Of a stretch of DNA of 64,000 bases, positions 10,273 to 23,684 are shown in pieces (position 1 is the stretch's first letter; each line of letters starts with the position of its first letter). The position numbers were made by a program, and so were the translations under genes. The notes under the pieces were generated by a model, which was not told where the DNA came from, searched no databases, and was given only the letters and a program-made list of their open reading frames with translations. Source of the stretch: Nitrospira sp. (GTDB lineage: Bacteria > Nitrospirota > Nitrospiria > Nitrospirales > Nitrospiraceae); contig BQWY01000001.1 in NCBI GenBank assembly GCA_036984305.1, positions 2,377,501 to 2,441,500 of the forward strand. Direction: 5' to 3'.

Positions 10273-11826
10273 CTAATGGCGGAAATGGCGCATGCCCGTC
10301 AGTATCATCGCCATTCCATGCTCATCCACGGCTTTGACCACTTCCGCGTCACGAATAGAACCGCCAGGCTGAATGACACACGTGATCCCGGCCTGCGCTG
10401 CGGCATCAATACCATCTCGGAAAGGGAAAAACGCATCCGAGGCCATCACGCAGCCTTTTACCGATGACTGCGCCTTCATCCCGGCGAGCTTCACCGAATC
10501 GACGCGGCTCATTTGCCCCGCCCCAATCCCGACGATTTGCCCCGGCCGTCCATAGATGATCGCGTTCGACTTCACGTGCTTGCAGACGATCCAGGTAAAG
10601 GCGCAGGCGGCATACTCCTCGTCGGTCGGCTTGCGCACCGTCGGCACCTGGAGGGATCTCATGTCTGGCAAACGCCCGAGGTCACGATCCTGGACGATGA
10701 GTCCGCCGACCAGTTTCTTGAGGTCGAAGCCCTCGGGTCCCGCCTTCGTCAAGGGCCCGACGTCAAGCAATCGAATGTCTTTTTTCCGTCGCAGCTCAGC
10801 CAACGCATCCTCGGCGAACCCCGGCGCGATCACCACCTCGACGAACGTCGAGGTGATTTCCTTGGCCGCAGCCAGGTCCACGGGACGATTGAAGGCGATG
10901 ACGCCGCCGAAAGCCGAAACGGGATCCGTCTCGCGCGCCTTGACATAGGCCTCGACCGGAGTCGCGCCCAAGGCCACCCCGCAGGGGTTGTTATGTTTGA
11001 TGATGGCAACCGCCGTGTCGTCGAACTCCTTGACCAACTCCAAGGCCGAATTGGCGTCCAGAAAATTGTTATACGACATGGCCTTCCCATGCAGGATGCG
11101 CCCGCGGGACACCGACGGTTCCTTGGAGTCAAAGTCCCGGTAAAACGCGCCCTGCTGGTGCGGATTTTCTCCATAGCGAAGAATGTCCACTCGCTCGAAC
11201 TGCATGGAGAGGATCGTCGGAAATTTTGTGTCGGCCCCCTGCGTCTGCTTTTCCAGATACCCTGCGATCAGGCTATCGTAGCGAGCCGTGTGCTGAAAGA
11301 CCTTCATCGCCAATTCACGACGGAGTATGGGCGTGACGGTGTTGTCCCTGGCGGCATCCAGTACGCGGGTGTAGTCCTTGGGATCAACCACCACGAGCAC
11401 GTCCTCATGATTCTTGGCTGCGGACCGCAGCATGGACGGGCCGCCGATGTCGATATGTTCGATGGCATCTTCAAAGGAGCAGTTCGGCTTTGAGATGGTG
11501 GCCTCGAAGGGATACAGATTCACCACCACCACGTCAATCGGTCCGATGTTGTGCTGCGACATCTGCTGAACGTGTGCGGGAACGCTCCGGCGGCCGAGCA
11601 AGCCGCCATGAATTTTCGGATGCAACGTCTTCACACGACCGTCGAGAATTTCAGGCGAGCCGGTGTACGCCGCAACATCTGTGACCTTCAGACCCGCATC
11701 GCGCAGTGATTTGGCCGTTCCGCCGGTGGACAGAATCTCCGCGCCAAGCGCCGCCAGTCCCTTGGCCATGTCCACCACGCCCGTTTTGTCCGACACACTG
11801 ACAAGTGCCCGCTTGATGCCGGCCAT
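10273..11826 (-). CDS. purH: Bifunctional AICAR transformylase/IMP cyclohydrolase
   Basis: Last two steps of de novo purine synthesis. The 517-residue protein has an N-terminal MGS-like cyclohydrolase domain ([18 protein letters not shown], with STGGTAKSL) and a C-terminal AICARFT domain with KHNNPCGVA and [12 protein letters not shown]. Length matches the family. An AAGGAG site sits just before the ATG. It is divergent from uup and followed by the hairpin repeat and then purD and the YrdC gene, so the three are probably one transcription unit. Confidence 0.97.
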
Positions 11827-13821: not shown

Positions 13822-15372
13822 CTATGAGAGCGGTAGGTTGAGCGGTAGGTTGAGCGGCCGGCTCAGACCCAGCTTCTTCATACGGCTGCGAAGCGTGCTG
13901 GGATTCAGACCCAATCGTTCCGCCGCACCGTAGGGACCATAGATCCGCCAGTGTGATGATTCCAGTGCGCTGAGAATGTGAGCACGTTCCATTTCCACCA
14001 AGCTCGGAGGGATGGCTGCCGAAGAGGTCGCGGTATGCTGTCCGTCCACCAGCGCATCGGGGCTGATCGTGACTGTACGGGAACGAGACAAGATGACCGC
14101 CCGTTCGATAACGTTCTGAAGTTGTCTGACGTTCCCTGGCCATGGACTATTGATGAGACGCTCCATCGATTCCTCGTTGAGTTCGAGGCTCGGACGTTTG
14201 AGTTTGATCCGATAGGACTCCAGGAAGTGACGGACGAGGAGCGGGATATCTTCCCGTCGATCACGGAGCGGAGGGATCACAATGGGGAATACGCTCAACC
14301 GGTAGTACAGATCGGACCGGAATCGTCCAGCCGATACCGCCGCACCCAAATCGGCATTCGTGGCGGCAATGATCCGCACATCGACAGGTACTGGCTGCAT
14401 CCCGCCAACACGGTCGACCATGCCTTCCTCGAGCACCCGAAGTAGCTTGGCTTGAGCTTCAAAGGGCATTTCACCGATCTCGTCGAGGAACAGCGTGCCG
14501 GAATCGGCCAATTCAAATCGGCCCAATCGTCGCTGACTGGCTCCGGTGAAGGCGCCCCGTTCATGTCCGAAGAGCTCGCTTTCAACCAATCCCATGGGGA
14601 GCGAGGCACAGTTCAGGCGCACGAACGGCTTTTCGGCGCGGGCGCTGTACGTGTGAATGGCTCTGGCCATCAACTCCTTCCCGGTGCCGGTCTCCCCCGT
14701 GACCAGGACGGTTGTTGACGTGGGGCCGACCGCCTCGACTTTGGCCAAGGCGGATCGAAATGCCGCACTTTGACCCACCATGGGCCCGCAACTTCTCGTG
14801 AGGCGCAACTCCTCCGCAAGATAGGCATTTTCCTGCGCCAGGAGTTGGCGGAGTTGATCGATTTGCTCGTAGGCTTGCACGTGGGCAATGGCGTAGGCGA
14901 CTTGGGTCGCGACCAGTTGTAGGAATTCGAGATCTTCCGGATCTGGAGAGCCGCCTTGCGTGCTGCCTATGTTCAGCGTCCCGATACACGAATCGCCGAC
15001 CAGGAGCGGCGCATTGATCATCCGCGCCAGGCCTTCGCGAACGTAAAAGCTATCCTCGATAAACAGTCGTTCGCGTTGCAGGTCCGGCCGAACATGAATG
15101 GTGCGGTGCTCGTACACCCATCCGACAGCACTCCCTTCCCGGGGAATGACCGCATCACGTTTGAGGCGGGGGATCGAAAACGTCGTCTCGACGGCGTAAA
15201 AACGAAACGAGTCGGTCTCGGAGTCGTAGAGGGTGACCCCGGCCCGCTCCCATGGAATGACCTTCTGAATCTGCGCGGTGATCGCACGCCAGAGGCTGTC
15301 CGTATCACGAAGCGAATTCAAGACATTGGTGACGGCCAGCAAGGCGCGATAGCGCCCTTCGTGTTCCTGCAT
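13822..15372 (-). CDS. Sigma-54-dependent activator, GAF-AAA-Fis type (copy 1, downstream of the nxr locus)
   Basis: A bacterial enhancer-binding protein of 516 residues. It has an N-terminal GAF sensor (about 5-170), a central AAA+ domain with Walker A GETGTGKE, the sigma-54 contact loop GAFTGA and Walker B GTLFLDEIGE, and a C-terminal Fis-type helix-turn-helix (YGAAERLGLNPSTLRSRMKK). It is an obvious paralogue of the activator at 22080-23684: most of the GAF and AAA+ domains can be aligned by eye without gaps. The ATG at 15372 follows GGAAGG; the longer frame to 15684 has no start support. No receiver domain, so the signal is presumably a small molecule sensed by GAF. The protein ends in a short LPLN repeat. 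Confidence 0.92.
   Translation of the reverse strand: MQEHEGRYRALLAVTNVLNSLRDTDSLWRAITAQIQKVIPWERAGVTLYDSETDSFRFYAVETTFSIPRLKRDAVIPREGSAVGWVYEHRTIHVRPDLQRERLFIEDSFYVREGLARMINAPLLVGDSCIGTLNIGSTQGGSPDPEDLEFLQLVATQVAYAIAHVQAYEQIDQLRQLLAQENAYLAEELRLTRSCGPMVGQSAAFRSALAKVEAVGPTSTTVLVTGETGTGKELMARAIHTYSARAEKPFVRLNCASLPMGLVESELFGHERGAFTGASQRRLGRFELADSGTLFLDEIGEMPFEAQAKLLRVLEEGMVDRVGGMQPVPVDVRIIAATNADLGAAVSAGRFRSDLYYRLSVFPIVIPPLRDRREDIPLLVRHFLESYRIKLKRPSLELNEESMERLINSPWPGNVRQLQNVIERAVILSRSRTVTISPDALVDGQHTATSSAAIPPSLVEMERAHILSALESSHWRIYGPYGAAERLGLNPSTLRSRMKKLGLSRPLNLPLNLPLS
13828..13863. repeat. 12-bp tandem repeat in the 3' end of activator copy 1
   Basis: GAGCGGTAGGTT occurs twice exactly and a third time diverged, immediately before the stop codon. 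It encodes the C-terminal LPLNLPLNLPLS and looks like recent slippage. Confidence 0.7.
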
Positions 15373-15573
15373 CGAAGGTCCTTCCGGCGACGTCGTCCGA
15401 CAGGAGCACCCTGGACCATCGAGGTCCCAAGACGGCCCGATCGGGAGGCTCAGGCAAGTCCATTTTAAGGATAAAGAGAGAATACGGGATTGACCAATTC
15501 CGGCGCAAGTCGGGCGGCTACGAGTCTGGCGGTCGTCTTCGGAAACCGAGATGAGATGAACGATGGTGGGGAA

Positions 15574-15609
15574 CCCTTGCGCCAGCCACTTTTCACGCCG
15601 GCGCAAGGG
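15574..15609. promoter_or_regulatory. Perfect 10-bp inverted repeat between activator copy 1 and the nxrA relic
   Basis: CCCTTGCGCC and GGCGCAAGGG are exact reverse complements separated by 16 bases. The dyad lies 202 bp upstream of the activator start and 118 bp downstream of the nxrA-like relic. It could be an operator or enhancer, or a hairpin ending transcription from the relic side; there is no T-run to prove the latter. Nothing else is recognisable in the 355-bp gap 15373-15727. Confidence 0.45.
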
Positions 15610-15727
15610 CCCACATCGGAAAGGAACCGCCCCCGTTCCCGTAAAAGAGGCCTTTCCCTTCCCGTGCGCGAGAGTCATGCTCACGATTTCGTCTCACCAC
15701 GTGCAATACCCACTAACTGGTTGCCCG

Positions 15728-15910
15728 TCACACTTTGATGCTAATGGCCTCCTCTTTGAGCCTCTTGGTCCTGAATTCATTCTCATGGCCGGGTGTGAGG
15801 CCGGTCCTGACAGGTTCCCAGGATCCATACGCGCTCGTACCGCCGTCTCCAGTCACAGTGAGCGACATGGAGCCATCTTTCGAGACCGTGTTATGTGTGT
15901 CGTTGTCCAT
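15728..15910 (-). pseudogene. Relic (or stand-alone copy) of the NxrA C terminus
   Basis: A 60-residue open frame whose last half, WEPVRTGLTPGHENEF through the terminal ISIKV, is plainly homologous to the end of NxrA in this window (WEPVRTGFTPGQENEF ... IKIKV). The similarity continues back to the start, where MDNDTHNTV corresponds to QIDHHAVNTV. The DNA also aligns with the nxrA 3' end at 18355-18540 with many silent differences, so the duplication is old. Nothing of the other 1,085 or so NxrA residues is visible upstream. The ATG has AAGGGA before it, so expression as a small protein is possible; I call it a pseudogene because the catalytic parts are missing. It lies between the CHASE3 gene and activator copy 1, on the nxr strand. 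Confidence 0.75.
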
Positions 15911-16254
15911 GGAAAATTCCCTTGCGAACGTGTCCCGCGCAATTGACGATCCAGAGATGAGCGCCGAGTGCCTTGAGCCCGGTATCTGACCCGGCACGCT
16001 ACTGTCACCAACGTCCCTGACGATACCTTCACACCTGCCTTTGCGAAAACACCCTGACTCTAAGCAACAGATGTGCCCCCTCCTGACTATCGATGTACCA
16101 CGGCAGATCAAGGGCTTGTGGCGAAGTGATGAGTGCCGTAACCTGCCACCCTCGACCAACCCGTCAACACAACGGTAAGGAACGGAAAATCCGTCATCAT
16201 AAGTGGCTTGGAGGCACGGAAGAGATGATCATGAAGCGGATCGAACCAGCACCG
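15911..16254. other. Intergenic region without recognised gene
   Basis: 344 bp between the CHASE3 gene and the nxrA-like relic. No convincing coding frame, hairpin terminator or -24/-12 site was found on either strand. If the relic was once a full gene, its missing 5' part is not detectable here. Confidence 0.5.
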
Positions 16255-16914
16255 CTATGCGCGCTGATGCGGCGACTGGGGAACTTCCCTCACCCGTCCT
16301 GTCAAAAGCCATCGCGCGCGTCCCAGATTGACTCCGACCGCAAGCGCTCCCAGCGTCGTCGCGGCGAGCCCTGTCCTGATCCGTAGACGCCGATCCTCGC
16401 GCTGACCCTCGCGAATGCGCTCTCGTTCCTCGATCTTGCGATCGAAATCCTGAAAGGCCAATGCGAGGGTCGCGGCCAGCGCGAGCCCTTCGCCGGAGCG
16501 AATGTATTGCAGGACTCCTTCGTCCATTCCCTCGTCAAGCCGCTTCGTGAGGTTACGCTTGAGACTCACAAATTCTTTAACCCGGGGGGCCAAGATGCGC
16601 ATCCGCCCACGGAATTCAGCTTGTTGGGCCGTGAGGGTCCCTAGCCGGTCGAGCGTCTCCGTAATCGCCCCCTCTGCCGCGGCCATTGGTTCCAAAAATT
16701 GTGGTTGGCGGACCAACACGTACCCTCGGAACGCCAGGTCCACGTCGGCGACCAGACGCTCCAGCCGGAGCAGCTCGTGTCGGATCTGCCCGTAGGCAGC
16801 CCGCTCCTCGTGGGACTTCTCCGCATACCCCAACAACCACAGCTCTCCGCCTACCAAGCCGGCGAGTCCGAGGACGGCCAGCAGCAGGACGGTGATACGG
16901 CGCGTGAGTGCCAT
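16255..16914 (-). CDS. Orphan CHASE3-domain membrane protein downstream of nxrB
   Basis: A 219-residue protein with a transmembrane helix at about 8-28, a helical extracytoplasmic domain at about 32-175 with CHASE3 features (RLVADVDLAFRGYVLVRQPQFLEP), and a second membrane helix at about 182-200. Only a short cytoplasmic tail follows. CHASE3 normally senses periplasmic signals for histidine kinases, cyclases or chemoreceptors; here no output domain follows. It is the next gene after nxrB in the same direction (75-bp gap), so it may be cotranscribed with nitrite oxidoreductase. Possible roles are a sensor passing its signal to a partner, or a membrane accessory of the Nxr complex; neither is shown by the sequence. 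Confidence 0.8.
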   Translation of the reverse strand: MALTRRITVLLLAVLGLAGLVGGELWLLGYAEKSHEERAAYGQIRHELLRLERLVADVDLAFRGYVLVRQPQFLEPMAAAEGAITETLDRLGTLTAQQAEFRGRMRILAPRVKEFVSLKRNLTKRLDEGMDEGVLQYIRSGEGLALAATLALAFQDFDRKIEERERIREGQREDRRLRIRTGLAATTLGALAVGVNLGRARWLLTGRVREVPQSPHQRA

Positions 16915-16947
16915 GAAGGAGTCGGGACACGGACTCGTGGTGAGTGT

Positions 16948-16974
16948 GGGGGGAGCGGCTGGGCCGCTCCCCCC
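16948..16974 (-). terminator. Perfect GC-rich hairpin after nxrB
   Basis: A 12-bp perfect stem (GGGGGGAGCGGC with GCCGCTCCCCCC) around a 3-nt loop, beginning 16 bp after the nxrB stop codon. There is no T-run, so rather than a full terminator it may stabilise the nxrAB mRNA end or attenuate readthrough into the CHASE3 gene. Confidence 0.6.
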
Positions 16975-16989
16975 GGGCTGCGACCGACC

Positions 16990-18279
16990 TTACAACCAGG
17001 TGACCCGCTCGGCGGGCCGGATGTAAATCGGCTCTTCGACCTGAATGCGGGCCACTTCCTTGCCCGACTTGTTGAAGCCCAGCACGGTGTCGTTGTACAT
17101 CTCGAACCGCTTGCCGTGAATCTGGGTCTCGAACACCTTCGGCCCCGGAATCACGTCGTAGCGGAAGATGATCTGCTGGCTGGCTCTCCAGAGTTGGAGG
17201 ACCGCCAACAGCTCCCGGCTCGGCACCAGGTACTTCTCAATGGCATTGTCCACCCCCGGCCCGAACATCTGCCGGTTGTAGCCGCGCGGCGCATGCCGCG
17301 GCGGAATGTAGTAGCCATTGGGCTCCGTGCCCCACTGCGGATACAGCGGCAGGGCCACCTGCTCCACGCGAATCGCGTAGTACAAGGGGTGCCACCGATC
17401 CTCGGCCCACAAGCCGTCCTCGCCGATGCGCACCAGGCTCTGCATGCGGATCTTGCCCACGCAGGCCGCCATACAGCGCGTCTCCATCGGCTCGCCGCCC
17501 GTCAAGGGGTCCTTCCCCTCGATACGCGGATAGCACGCAATGCACTTCTCCGACACCCGGGTCGTCCCCCGGTACATCGGCTTCTTGTACGGACACTGCT
17601 CCACGCACTTCTTGTACCCCCGGCAGCGGTTCTGGTCGATCAACACGATGCCGTCTTCCGGCCGCTTGTAGATCGCCTTGCGCGGACAGGCCGCCAAGCA
17701 GCCCGGGTACGTGCAGTGGTTACAGATCCGCTGCAGGTAGAAGAAGAACGTCTCATGCTCGGGGAGCGAGCTGCCCGTCATCTTCCACGGTTCATCCCGC
17801 GAGAACCCCGTCTTGTCGATGCCCTCCACGATGGCGCGCATCGAGGTCGCCGTGTCCTCGTAGATGTTGACGAACCGCCACTCCTGGTCCGTCGGGATGT
17901 AGCCGATCGCCGCCTGGCCCACCTTGGCCCCCGCGTCGAAAATCGTCATCCCTTCGAACACCCCATAGGGCGCATGGTGCTTGCGGCCCACCCGCACGTT
18001 CCACACCTGCCCCCCGGGGTTCACCTGCTCGACCAACTGCGTGATCTTCACGTCGTAGAACTGCGGGTACCCGCCGTAGGGCTTGGTCTCCACGTTGTTC
18101 CACCACATGTACTCCTGGCCCTTCGAGAACAGCCAGGTCGACTTGTCCGCCATCGAACAGGTCTGACACGCCAAACACCGATTGATGTTGAACACAAAGG
18201 CAAACTGCCACTTCGGATGCCGCTCCTCGTACGGGTACAGCATCTTCCGTCCCAGATGCCAGTTATACACTTCAGGCAT
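16990..18279 (-). CDS. nxrB: Nitrite oxidoreductase beta subunit
   Basis: Iron-sulfur electron-transfer subunit of nitrite oxidoreductase, 429 residues, the usual length in Nitrospira. It carries electrons from the molybdenum site of NxrA toward the membrane. Four cysteine clusters are visible: CLACQTC at 35-41, CNHCTYPGCLAAC, CRGYKKCVEQC, and CIACYPR with CMAACVGK, enough for four [Fe-S] clusters as in NarH. There is no signal peptide, so it is expected to be exported bound to NxrA, whose twin-arginine signal would carry the pair to the periplasm. A strong AAGGAGGAG site precedes the ATG. It lies 75 bp after nxrA, forming an nxrAB operon. Confidence 0.98.
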   Translation of the reverse strand: MPEVYNWHLGRKMLYPYEERHPKWQFAFVFNINRCLACQTCSMADKSTWLFSKGQEYMWWNNVETKPYGGYPQFYDVKITQLVEQVNPGGQVWNVRVGRKHHAPYGVFEGMTIFDAGAKVGQAAIGYIPTDQEWRFVNIYEDTATSMRAIVEGIDKTGFSRDEPWKMTGSSLPEHETFFFYLQRICNHCTYPGCLAACPRKAIYKRPEDGIVLIDQNRCRGYKKCVEQCPYKKPMYRGTTRVSEKCIACYPRIEGKDPLTGGEPMETRCMAACVGKIRMQSLVRIGEDGLWAEDRWHPLYYAIRVEQVALPLYPQWGTEPNGYYIPPRHAPRGYNRQMFGPGVDNAIEKYLVPSRELLAVLQLWRASQQIIFRYDVIPGPKVFETQIHGKRFEMYNDTVLGFNKSGKEVARIQVEEPIYIRPAERVTWL

Positions 18280-18354
18280 TGGATCTCCTCCTTCTCATGA
18301 TCAAATGGTGGATAGGTCGTCTCATCGGCGGTGGCGACATCGCGCTCGCCGTCC

Positions 18355-21300
18355 TTAGACTTTGATCTTGATGTGCTCGCCTTTGAGCCACTTGATCATG
18401 AACTCGTTCTCCTGGCCCGGCGTAAAGCCCGTCCGGACCGGCTCCCACGGCCCACGCGCCCCGATGCCGCCGTCCTCCGCCTTGGTGATGCGGATCAAGC
18501 ATTCCTTCGGCACCGTGTTGACCGCGTGGTGGTCGATTTGGAATCCCCACTTGAACCGGAGTGCGTTGGCATCTTTACCTGGCAACGAATCGGTTTGGTG
18601 CATCGGCATCAACCAGCTCCGGGTAAAGGACTGCTGGGCGCCATACCGGAAGTTCGACTGATAGCCGGTATCCAGCGCGATCGCGCGTCCGTCCGGACGG
18701 GTCTCGTGCCCCTTGACCGACTTCGCCGTCGACACGTACGGGGCGTGCTTCGCCATCGTCACGTGGTACGGGAAAGAGGGATTGTACTTGGCCCGGATCA
18801 TCAACCGCGCCACCTTGTAGTACGGATCACTCGGCCGCCAGCCGCGATACGGCCGGTCCACCGGGTTCCCGTCCACATAGACGTAGTCGCCGTCGTTGAT
18901 CCCGCGGTCCTTCGCCGCCTGTGGGTTGATGTGCAACTGGTGCTCGCCGACCCCCGGCGTCCGCTTGTCCATCCGGTACGGATCGCCGAAATTCGACTCG
19001 TAAATCTGCACCCAGTCGTTCACCGACCACTGGCTGTGCACCCGGTGCCGGGTCTTCGGGGTCACGCAGTAGAACTGATACCCCTTCTCCCACAACGGGT
19101 TGCTATGGCGCTTGATGTCCGACCACGGCAGCTTGACGTTACGGACCGTCTTGTCGTCGTGGTGCTGCGCCGTGATGGGAATCCCGTAGTCGTCCGGCCG
19201 GACGTACGGGTTGGTGGAGAAGATCGCGTTTGGCAGATACGGTGTCGCTTCCGGTCCCTCGCGGTGGACAATGAAGTTTTCGCCGTATTCGATCGCTTCC
19301 GGCTCGATGCGGTAGGTTTCCAACCGACCGCTACGCGTCCAATGCGGCTTGCTCTCCTGCGTTTCTTCCCACAACGGATGGCGCGGATAGGTCCGCACCA
19401 TGACCATCCAGCCCTTTTCCGACTTCAGCAACACGTCGGCGCTGTAGCCGTAGAAGGTCGAGGAGGCGTCCAGCACGCGTTGCGCGTAGACGTCGACTCG
19501 GTTGTTATAAACGAAATGGAACGTCTGCCGCATGCGATCCTCACCCGTGACTTCCGCCATCTTGGCCGAAACCCCGGCAAAGGTATCAAGGTCGTTGCGG
19601 GTGTCGTACAGCGGCCGGATGCCGCCCTTCCAGAGCTGTAGCCATGGATTGGAGACCGTCGCGGTCATTTCCGGATAGGTGAACTCCATCCAGGAATTGA
19701 CCGCAAAGGCTACGTCGGCATGGTTAACGTCCGAGGTCATTTCGATATCTTGAGTCACCAGCATCTCGATGTTCGGATCGACGTTCTTCACCATGTCGTA
19801 GTGGTGCTTTGAATTATTCAGAATATTCACGTTGACGACCCAGCGTACCTTCGAGGGTGTCGGCATGTGGGTCTTGCCGGTGAACACCTTGCGGCCGTAC
19901 TTCGGCGTGTTGACGATCAAGGCCGTATCGCCGTGGTTCCAATATCCAGGTTCTTCACCGTAGTAGTATTTGCGGTACTTGATGTTTTTCCCGTGGGCAC
20001 TGGCATCGAGATTCATGCTCCAGGGGTCCTCGGACAGATGCACGGCAGCGCCGACCCCGGACCACGGCGTTGCATTCCAGATACCCACCTTATAGTTCCC
20101 CGACCAGGTATGACAGCCGGTGCCAAACTTCCCGACATTGCCCGTCAAAATCAGGACCAGGGCCGCGGCGCGTCCATTCTGCGTCATGTGAAAGTAGTGA
20201 CAGACGCCTTCGCCGTTGTGGATCGCCGCCGGCTTGATCGTGCCCGAATCGCGCGCCCAACGGACCAGCAGGTCCTTCGGCGTGCGGGCAATCTGGTGCA
20301 CCGTATCGAGATCGTAGTCTTGCAGGTGAATCATGTAGAGCTGGTAAATCGGCATCGCGTCGACCTCACGGCCGTTGAGCAATTTGACCCGGTAGGTCCC
20401 GGTCAGCGCCGCATCGATGCCGCTTTGGTCGTAGTGCCGGCCCACTTGCTCGCGGTGCAACGGCACCGCCTGGCCCTTGACCAAGTCCCACACCATCATG
20501 CCGCCCAACCGTTCCACGTACTCGGGCTTGAGTCCCTGCACGCGTCCGGAGTAGGACTGTGAAAAATCCGGCAAGCGATAGTTCTCGATGACATCACGCG
20601 GATCCAAATACTGCAACGTGTCCGTACGCACCAGCAGCGGCATGTCGCTGAACTGTTTGAGGAAGTCGATGTCCTGCATGCCCTCGTCGAGAATGATCCG
20701 GCACGCGCCCAAGAAAATCGCGCTGTCCGACTCGGGTCGTAACGGCACCCAATAATCGGCCCGGCTCGCCGTCGGATTGTATTCCGGTGTGATGACCGCA
20801 ATGCGACCGCCACGCTCGATCGATTCAAGCTTCCAGTGCGCTTCCGGCATCTTGTTCTCGACGAAGTTCTTGCCCCAACTGGTGTTGAACTTCGTGAAAC
20901 GCATGTCGTTCAGATCGACGTCGCAATTCTGCGTGCCATTCCACCACGGCTGCGACGGATCCTGGTCACCGTGCCACGTGTAATTGTTCCAGTAGCGACC
21001 ACCTTGCGCCTGATCGGGGCCCACCTTCCGGATGTAGTTATCGAGCAGCGGCAGAATGCAGTTGTTGAAGCGAGTATTGCCATGCTTGCCCAGCAAGCCG
21101 AGAATCGGCATGCCGGCGCGGTGCTTGAAGCAGCGGGTCCCCGCGCCCTTCATCATCTCAATCATCTCCGGCGGATAGCCCTGCTCGCGCAACCGCCGCG
21201 CGCCCGCTTCGCCGCTGTACCGGGTTCCGATGACGATCATGCCCTTGGCCACGTAGGTGAAGGCCGTGTCCCAGGACACGCGCATCATGTCGTCCAGATA

Positions 21301-21792
21301 GCGGCTGTCGAATTTGTACTTGTGCTTGGTCTCCGGCGTGAGTTCCGGCGAGCCGGCGTCCATCCACGCCTTCCAGCCCTTGCGCATCAACGGGCCCTTC
21401 AACCGATACGGGCCGTAGACACGGCGATGAAAGGTAAACCCCTTCAAGCACATGCGCGGGTTGTGCGCGAACGTCCCGCGGTTGCCGTAGAGGTCTTCGT
21501 AGGTCTGGTGATCGTAGTTCTGCTCGACGCGCATGACGACGCCGTTGCGCACGAAGGCGCGGATCCGGCAGGCGTGGGTGTCATTCGGCGAGCAGACCCA
21601 CGTGAATGAACTATCGTATCGGTACTGATCGTGGTAGACGCGCTCCCACGACCGGTCCGGATAGTCGCCAAGCGGATTCTCCACTTCGATGACCGGCTGC
21701 AAGGCCGTCAACGCCAGCGCCGGATCGGCCACGGCCACGGCGGCCACCGTGCCCGCCGATGCCTTCATAAATTGCCTCCGCGAAAGTAACAT
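18355..21792 (-). CDS. nxrA: Nitrite oxidoreductase alpha (catalytic) subunit
   Basis: Molybdopterin enzyme of the type II DMSO reductase family, oxidising nitrite to nitrate in the periplasm; the energy-generating enzyme of nitrite oxidisers. 1,145 residues from the ATG at 21792. The N terminus has a twin-arginine signal (SRRQFMK at 4-10, then an Ala-rich hydrophobic stretch). Residues 67-115 carry the [Fe-S] site (Cys67, Cys75, Cys115 in CSPNDTHAC ... NPRMCLKG). The rest is the molybdopterin-binding fold. The ATG is chosen over one seven codons upstream because GGAGGGAGG precedes it. Upstream lie a -24/-12 promoter, an IHF-type site and a palindrome, indicating sigma-54 control. Its C-terminal end has a diverged duplicate at 15728-15910. 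Confidence 0.98.
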   Translation of the reverse strand: MLLSRRQFMKASAGTVAAVAVADPALALTALQPVIEVENPLGDYPDRSWERVYHDQYRYDSSFTWVCSPNDTHACRIRAFVRNGVVMRVEQNYDHQTYEDLYGNRGTFAHNPRMCLKGFTFHRRVYGPYRLKGPLMRKGWKAWMDAGSPELTPETKHKYKFDSRYLDDMMRVSWDTAFTYVAKGMIVIGTRYSGEAGARRLREQGYPPEMIEMMKGAGTRCFKHRAGMPILGLLGKHGNTRFNNCILPLLDNYIRKVGPDQAQGGRYWNNYTWHGDQDPSQPWWNGTQNCDVDLNDMRFTKFNTSWGKNFVENKMPEAHWKLESIERGGRIAVITPEYNPTASRADYWVPLRPESDSAIFLGACRIILDEGMQDIDFLKQFSDMPLLVRTDTLQYLDPRDVIENYRLPDFSQSYSGRVQGLKPEYVERLGGMMVWDLVKGQAVPLHREQVGRHYDQSGIDAALTGTYRVKLLNGREVDAMPIYQLYMIHLQDYDLDTVHQIARTPKDLLVRWARDSGTIKPAAIHNGEGVCHYFHMTQNGRAAALVLILTGNVGKFGTGCHTWSGNYKVGIWNATPWSGVGAAVHLSEDPWSMNLDASAHGKNIKYRKYYYGEEPGYWNHGDTALIVNTPKYGRKVFTGKTHMPTPSKVRWVVNVNILNNSKHHYDMVKNVDPNIEMLVTQDIEMTSDVNHADVAFAVNSWMEFTYPEMTATVSNPWLQLWKGGIRPLYDTRNDLDTFAGVSAKMAEVTGEDRMRQTFHFVYNNRVDVYAQRVLDASSTFYGYSADVLLKSEKGWMVMVRTYPRHPLWEETQESKPHWTRSGRLETYRIEPEAIEYGENFIVHREGPEATPYLPNAIFSTNPYVRPDDYGIPITAQHHDDKTVRNVKLPWSDIKRHSNPLWEKGYQFYCVTPKTRHRVHSQWSVNDWVQIYESNFGDPYRMDKRTPGVGEHQLHINPQAAKDRGINDGDYVYVDGNPVDRPYRGWRPSDPYYKVARLMIRAKYNPSFPYHVTMAKHAPYVSTAKSVKGHETRPDGRAIALDTGYQSNFRYGAQQSFTRSWLMPMHQTDSLPGKDANALRFKWGFQIDHHAVNTVPKECLIRITKAEDGGIGARGPWEPVRTGFTPGQENEFMIKWLKGEHIKIKV

Positions 21793-21916
21793 GATGCCTC
21801 CCTCCTGCATCAATGAAGTGAGGTGCCCGACGCCCGCGCTGCGACCGCGGTATGTGCCTATGCGTAAAATCCACTGCCTTCTTCACAGCCGGCGTACGAA
21901 AATGACCGATACAAGT

Positions 21917-22007: not shown

Positions 22008-22040
22008 CGTCAGACCACGAAGGCAGACGGTTTGAAACGG

Positions 22041-22064
22041 AAAAGCCGTCACAAACGACGGCTT
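22041..22064 (-). terminator. Hairpin after activator copy 2; also candidate nxrA enhancer
   Basis: AAGCCGTC and GACGGCTT form a perfect 8-bp stem with a 6-nt loop, 15 bp after the stop codon of the upstream activator and running into TTTTCC on the minus strand, so it is a plausible Rho-independent terminator. Its centre is also about 121 bp upstream of the nxrA -24 element, the usual distance for an upstream activating sequence, so it may have both roles. Confidence 0.65.
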
Positions 22065-22079
22065 GGCGGCTCGGGCAGT

Positions 22080-23684
22080 TTACGACACCAACGGGGGGCG
22101 AGTGATTCGCAGTCTGCGCAATCGTCCGCGAAGCGTACTTGGATGAAGCCCCAGTCGAGCAGCGGCTCCCCACGGGCCTTCGATCCGCCAGCGCGTCTGA
22201 TCCAAAATGGCGAGAATATGTTGCCGTTCGACTTCATCGAGCTTCGACGGACACTCCCCGCCGTGGTTCGCGTCCCCCTCGAAATTCATCGCTCCCGTGG
22301 TGGCTGGGAAGGAGGACCGTTCCTGAGACGACGCCGGGCGAGCGGGGTGTTCGTGCCAGAGCTGCAAGCTGTGTGTCAGCTCCAAGATCGGCCCTTCGCT
22401 CAGAATGACGGCTCGCTCGATCACGTTTTGGAGTTCGCGAACGTTCCCGGGCCACGGATACCGCAGAAATTGATCCATCGTCGTGGGACCAACTCCATCC
22501 AATCCCTTTTTCAACTTCCGCGAGCAAAGCTGGAGGAAATGCGCCGCGAGCAACTCGATATCCCGCGGTCGTTCGCGTAGCGCCGGTATATGGATCGGGA
22601 AAACGTGTAGACGAAAGAAGAGATCGGAGCGAAACCGCCCGTCCCGCACTGCAACCTGGAGATCCGCGTTCGTCGCGGCGATGATCCGCACATCGACTGG
22701 AATAGAGTGCGTCCCTCCGACCCGATCGACATAGCCGTCTTGTAGCACCCTCAAGAGTTTCGCTTGAGCCTCTAGCGGGAGTTCCCCAATCTCATCCAAA
22801 AACAGGGTGCCGCCATGCGCTAACTCGAAGCGCCCGGGCCGCCGCTGATCCGCGCCGGTGAAGGCACCCCGCTCATGCCCGAACAGTTCACTTTCGACCA
22901 GTCCGGCCGGCAGCGCCGCGCAGTTCATCCGAATGAGCGGCTTCGCCCGACGACCGCTCCAGTCATGGATCGCTCTGGCCAGCAGTTCCTTTCCGGTTCC
23001 CGTTTCACCGGTGATCAACACGGTCGACTGCGTCGCCGCCACAGCTCTCGCAAGGCCCAGCATATGTTGAAAGGACTCACTCGCGCCGACCATGGCGCCG
23101 AGGTTGTGGTTGCCGTTGATCTCCTCGACGAGATAAGCGTTCTCGCGAGCGAGTTGTTGGCTCAATTGACTGATGGTTTCGTAGGCCTGGACGTTATCGA
23201 TCGCGATCGCCAGCTGTGTGCCTATTTGCTCCAGAAACGCCAGATCATCCGTATCGGGCGTGCCCTCCTCGATGCTGCCGATGTTGAGCGTTCCCAGGCA
23301 CGCGTCCCTGACAATCAACGGGACATTGATCATCCGGCCGAGCCCCTCTTGGTGATAGTAGGTATCTTCCAAGAAGACACGCTGGCGTTTGAGAAAAGGA
23401 CGGATGTGCGGACGGTGATGGTCGTAGACCCATCCGATCGCGCTGCCTCGGCGAGGGATCACCGCGTCGCGCTGCAGAACCCGTTCGTGCAGTGAGGTTT
23501 CGAGGGCGTAGAAGCGGAAAGCGTCGCTCTCGCGATGATACAGGGTGATCCCCGCCCGCTCCCATGGCACCACCTTTCGAATCTGTTGGGTGACGGCCTT
23601 CCACAAACTCACGCTGTCCCGTTGCGAGTTCAGGACGTTGGTGACCGCCAAGAGGGCCCGAAAGCTCTGTTCAATGTCCCGCAT
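22080..23684 (-). CDS. Sigma-54-dependent activator, GAF-AAA-Fis type (copy 2, directly upstream of nxrA)
   Basis: Enhancer-binding protein of 534 residues: GAF domain at about 5-170, AAA+ domain with Walker A GETGTGKE, the sigma-54 loop GAFTGA and Walker B GTLFLDEIGE, and a Fis-type helix-turn-helix (GAAARLGLHPSTLRGRLRR). It is immediately upstream of nxrA, codirectional and separated by a hairpin, so it is the natural candidate to activate the nxrA promoter. It is paralogous to the protein at 13822-15372, including the segment LGTLNIGS in the GAF domain. GGAGGAA precedes the ATG and lies in a 12-bp palindrome (23692-23703). Confidence 0.93.
   Translation of the reverse strand: MRDIEQSFRALLAVTNVLNSQRDSVSLWKAVTQQIRKVVPWERAGITLYHRESDAFRFYALETSLHERVLQRDAVIPRRGSAIGWVYDHHRPHIRPFLKRQRVFLEDTYYHQEGLGRMINVPLIVRDACLGTLNIGSIEEGTPDTDDLAFLEQIGTQLAIAIDNVQAYETISQLSQQLARENAYLVEEINGNHNLGAMVGASESFQHMLGLARAVAATQSTVLITGETGTGKELLARAIHDWSGRRAKPLIRMNCAALPAGLVESELFGHERGAFTGADQRRPGRFELAHGGTLFLDEIGELPLEAQAKLLRVLQDGYVDRVGGTHSIPVDVRIIAATNADLQVAVRDGRFRSDLFFRLHVFPIHIPALRERPRDIELLAAHFLQLCSRKLKKGLDGVGPTTMDQFLRYPWPGNVRELQNVIERAVILSEGPILELTHSLQLWHEHPARPASSQERSSFPATTGAMNFEGDANHGGECPSKLDEVERQHILAILDQTRWRIEGPWGAAARLGLHPSTLRGRLRRLRITRPPLVS

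Follow-up and report, generated by a model that had tools for sequence, protein, structure and literature searches.

Organization of the nxr locus

The window, as the whole 64-kb stretch of Nitrospira DNA that was analysed is called here, contains on its minus strand, in this order, the regulator gene reg1, nxrA, nxrB, a gene for a CHASE3-domain protein, a short nxrA relic and a second regulator gene, reg2 (Table 1). Both nxrA and nxrB are intact. The relic comprises three pieces, which are homologous to the leader, the start and the 3' end of nxrA. The genome carries three nxrA genes besides the relic, the two outside the window encoding proteins 86% identical to the NxrA of the window.

Table 1. 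Features of the nxr locus in window coordinates
Feature	Position	Strand	Basis
reg2, 3' neighbour of the relic	13822..15372	minus	Pfam GAF, Sigma54_activat, HTH_8 (Fis-HTH)
nxrA C-terminal relic, codons 1087-1152 and stop, open frame	15728..15928	minus	tblastn E 6e-17, 53% identity
Hypothetical 60-aa ORF (ATG..TGA) within the relic	15728..15910	minus	Mechanical ORF
Approximate internal-deletion junction (nxrA codons ~43 to ~1080-1086 missing)	15929..15955	minus	Spacing of the pieces
Frameshifted nxrA start relic (Tat signal, ~codons 8-42)	15956..16057	minus	nhmmer and Smith-Waterman
Degraded terminator/leader copy (source after reg1 and before nxrA, 22074..22027)	16172..16219	minus	Smith-Waterman
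Gene for a CHASE3-domain protein, on the 5' side of the relic	16255..16914	minus	Pfam CHASE3 E 3.4e-11
nxrB, intact, 429 aa	16990..18279	minus	ORF; 96-99% identical to NxrB at orthologous loci of relatives
nxrA, intact, 1152 aa	18355..21813	minus	phmmer to NxrA of PDB 7b04, E 0
reg1, regulator upstream of nxrA	22080..23684	minus	ORF; 66% identical to reg2 over 379 aa

At least three genera share the order nxrA-nxrB-CHASE3-GAF/sigma-54 regulator (window 13822-21813; L156, L157, L158, L161), suggesting that the CHASE3 protein and the GAF/sigma-54 regulator belong with the nxr unit. The nxrA-nxrB-CHASE3 segment is also duplicated at a distant locus (window 16318-21792 versus L011 5139-10615, 90% DNA identity). 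At this third nxr locus, where the CHASE3 gene has a 92% identical copy, no counterpart of the relic is present. The listed NxrB sequences look identical across all three copies and NxrA differs by 14%, hinting that nxrB may have been homogenised among the copies. The third nxrA copy (L011 ~10420-10440; G000:C1 near 237340-237440) contains a 2-nt insertion, GAACTCTACGAT versus GAACTACGAT, which splits its frame near codon 100 and reflects either a genuine lesion or faulty assembly.

The C-terminal piece

The minus strand from 15928 to 15728 aligns with residues 1087-1152 of the NxrA of the window without gaps or stops, with 35 of the 66 residues identical, and the homology ends precisely on the NxrA stop codon. 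The translation is FAREFSMDNDTHNTVSKDGSMSLTVTGDGGTSAYGSWEPVRTGLTPGHENEFRTKRLKEEAISIKV, followed by the stop. In a gapped protein alignment the whole ORF scores 166, while none of 500 shuffles exceeds 55, which places the resemblance to the NxrA end, already recognized in the first-pass annotation, well above background. The homologous stretch is longer than the approximately 56 residues first proposed. Its frame is open as had been described, and both motifs named at that stage, WEPVRTG and TPG.ENEF, are conserved, as is IKV.

At the DNA level 130 of 198 positions are identical to nxrA of the window. The silent differences noted earlier are indeed there, in 16 codons, next to 31 codons in which the residue is changed. 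These 31 replacements fall on sites that are mostly invariant in NxrA, the NxrA proteins of the order being nearly invariant over this stretch. GC content at third positions is 67% in the relic versus 89% in intact nxrA. Conservation is uneven, with 22 of the last 30 codons conserved versus 13 of the first 36 (p 0.003), and the last 30 codons are also the most constrained part of working NxrA.

The 60-aa ORF that lies within this piece has a predicted product that includes LTVTGDGGTSAYGSWEPVR, and the ORF containing this frame has no Pfam match. Its ATG and the ribosome-binding sequence that was reported in front of it exist, but the alignment shows the ATG to be an nxrA codon ATC mutated to ATG, and the weak ribosome-binding-like AGGGA to be mutated nxrA coding sequence, so that neither is an added signal. 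A scan for promoters of the sigma-70-like type detected none near the relic.

Leader and N-terminal pieces upstream

The nxrA leader finds its top non-self match in the whole window at the 48-bp leader relic, with a Smith-Waterman score of 23 as compared to 10.9 +/- 1.5 for shuffled sequences (0 of 500 as high) and 15 for the runner-up. The source sequence folds into a strong terminator hairpin with an 8-bp stem (-14.9 kcal/mol), a stem that is disrupted in the relic (-7.1).

An nhmmer model made of 70 nxrA starts has only one second match in the window, at 16053..15997 (E 0.0089), which pairwise alignment extends to the limits given in Table 1 (Smith-Waterman 24 versus 13.5 +/- 2.2, 0 of 300 shuffles). 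Within its Tat-signal region this piece has lost 1 nt, which breaks the reading frame. The match to the start model is by itself modest, since a search of 1.65 Mb from other loci gives 11 bits at a few unrelated places too, and it becomes convincing because the strand, the order and the position inside the 325-bp gap fit.

The three pieces lie on one strand in the order of the intact operon, and the spacing between the N-terminal and C-terminal pieces is 27 nt versus more than 3.1 kb in nxrA. Since the leader and start pieces are collinear with the C-terminal piece, the three are best understood as one nxrA from which an interior of ~3.1 kb has been deleted. The initial description of the feature as a copy of the C terminus only is thus superseded, as degraded leader and N-terminal sequences sit just upstream.

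Distribution among relatives

Orthologues of reg2, 73-76% identical, directly follow the CHASE3 gene in six relatives examined (L156, L157, L158, L159, L161 and L163), among them N. japonica (L156), Nitrospira sp. KM1 (L157) and N. moscoviensis (L161). According to the alignments, the interval between the two genes is ~150-385 bp in these relatives versus ~880 bp here, and it contains no nxrA start or end sequence in any of the six. The stretch downstream of the relic gave short chance matches only when compared with these orthologous gaps. Most simply, these comparisons suggest that the relic was gained in this lineage and then decayed; a traceless loss in all other lineages could also have occurred but is the less simple reading.

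Among the matches listed for 236 genomes of the order, in which this genome alone represents its genus, there is no free-standing NxrA C terminus. The listed full-stretch matches to a 61-residue query are at most 57% identical and come nearly all from full-length nxrA, and none of those outside this genome is closer to the relic than NxrA itself. The order-wide list covers the stronger matches, and a true orthologue would be expected to outrank NxrA. The search for the same ORF in other Nitrospira, which had been proposed as a check, therefore yields no orthologue among the matches listed for the 236 genomes and a relic-free orthologous site in the six relatives.

Short-frame matches in seven genomes (G015, G023, G038, G060, G087, G151 and G169) were rejected as free-standing tails, being contig edges or frameshifted or gappy nxrA genes. 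In G151 (L119 3543-6587), nxrA is missing pieces around residues 955-982 and 1080-1108, possibly through assembly collapse or because it is another decaying copy. In the genome to which L108 and L122 belong, both nxrA and nxrB seem frameshifted in several places, for which sequencing errors are the likely cause.

Selection on the remaining frame

A single dN/dS fitted to the fragment branch is 0.09 (lnL -1391.44), and purely neutral evolution throughout the branch is rejected (lnL -1399.5 vs -1391.4). The low value, obtained by a test that had been suggested at the outset, is not proof of selection, because the branch must include a phase as functional nxrA. A two-phase branch, first functional with omega 0.018 and then fully neutral, fits equally well (lnL -1391.20, with synonymous sites saturated), and dN/dS was consequently dropped as a sign of selection. 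Because of the same saturation the source copy of the fragment cannot be placed. The position of the fragment in a tree is too long-branched for use.

Simulated neutral decay with 30-60 changes leaves the 66 codons without a stop in 25-45% of cases. That they also lack indels is the less expected outcome, the probability that no indel occurs during 37 neutral changes ranging from ~0.16 to 0.004 for assumed indel to substitution ratios of 0.05-0.15.

Origin of the relic

The feature is very probably an nxrA pseudogene that goes back to an nxr unit which was duplicated and then decayed. It is homologous to and collinear with nxrA, and it bears a ~3.1-kb deletion and a 1-nt frameshift. A functional nxrA would be expected to have an open frame of ~1150 codons with molybdopterin domains, and only codons ~8-42, which are broken, and 1087-1152 are left here. 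The suggestion that a second nxrA was lost and left this stretch as a scar is supported, and the leader and N-terminal relics together with the relic-free orthologous sites in relatives strengthen it. The disrupted terminator stem, the lowered third-position GC, the many replacements at nearly invariant NxrA sites, the fit of the two-phase branch and the loss of a tandem copy in N. moscoviensis (PMC6606698) also speak for a pseudogene. The counter-evidence is that the C-terminal 66 codons are free of indels though the start piece has one, that the last 30 codons are better conserved than the first 36, and that the relic is followed by no nxrB remnant. No report of this relic was found in the literature searched on truncated nxrA and nxrA pseudogenes in Nitrospira.

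In the proposed sequence of events, an nxr unit consisting of the leader, nxrA and probably nxrB and the CHASE3 gene would have been duplicated and inserted between the CHASE3 gene and reg2, after which the extra copy would have lost its function. About 3.1 kb would then have been deleted inside the extra nxrA and its nxrB removed, while the terminator/leader accumulated mutations and the Tat-signal start was frameshifted. What remains is ~490 bp, made up of the leader, the start in its broken form and the 66 terminal codons. The duplication would have been a tandem one, the deletions would have followed this order and the remainder would be devoid of function. Comparison of the stretch between the relic and reg2 with nxrB stays at the shuffle level and reveals no nxrB remnant. 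The regions upstream of reg2 and reg1 likewise resemble each other no more than shuffled sequences do. Such a remnant of nxrB being absent after the relic, the view that the full unit was duplicated is an inference.

An unlikely alternative is that the C-terminal ORF outlived the rest of nxrA as a 60-aa protein, one that might bind NxrB or a maturation factor in place of the NxrA tail, and it is just as doubtful that the 60-aa frame may still be translated into a partner of NxrB or of the NXR assembly machinery. If true, this would be a lineage-specific small protein born of a dying enzyme gene. The open and indel-free frame with its original stop, the conserved motifs, the better conservation of the last 30 codons, the greater divergence of third positions than of first and second ones and the rejected whole-branch neutrality are all in line with it. 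However, that rejection vanishes once the source nxrA is allowed a functional phase on the branch, the open frame is not improbable under neutral decay, the start codon and ribosome-binding-like site are mutated nxrA codons, and neither a sigma-70-like promoter nearby nor a free-standing homologue among the listed matches was detected. The idea of a retained protein that binds NxrB, put forward in the first-pass annotation, thus gains no positive support, selection after truncation not being required by the data.

Less probable still is that only a short 3' end of nxrA was copied by illegitimate recombination or gene conversion, so that a full second nxrA never existed here, an explanation which would account for a relic without an nxrB remnant after it but not for the leader and N-terminal relics that lie upstream in the correct order. 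Chance similarity or an assembly artefact hardly merits consideration, as the former is at odds with the tblastn E value of 6e-17 and a mis-joined nxrA copy with the relic DNA sharing, along the full stretch, only ~66% identity with any nxrA that was examined, and no weight was given to the genome being in 11 contigs and nxr repeats being hard to assemble (PMC12342949).

Comparison with known nxr systems

The copy number of nxrAB in Nitrospira varies, and its history has been described as puzzling (PMC12342949). The pseudogene provides sequence evidence for gain and loss of nxr units at this site. In all likelihood we are dealing with a gene fossil of an ordinary, mildly useful kind at a locus prone to changes in nxr copy number, and matches to the NxrA C terminus need a length check before nxrA copies are counted.

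The relic resembles NxrA of Nitrospirales, of which a solved relative is available (PDB code 7b04), in its leader, Tat-signal start and last 66 codons, which are homologous and collinear. It differs in lacking ~90% of the gene, in the frameshifted start and in the 31 of 66 residues that are changed.

Nitrospira normally have several nxrAB copies accompanied by sigma-54-type regulators (PMC7522533, PMC6606698). In a culture of N. moscoviensis, a tandem nxrAB copy with a regulator was lost between NITMOv2_4533 and 4537 through recombination between nxrB copies (PMC6606698). Going by gene order, the site of this deletion is probably the one next to the orthologue of reg2 in L051 and L161. The two cases share the type of locus, nxrAB flanked by sigma-54-type regulators, and the loss of a tandem copy, but the clean nxrB-nxrB recombination in N. 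moscoviensis left a fused, intact nxrB (PMC6606698), whereas the relic described here has undergone internal deletion and point decay.
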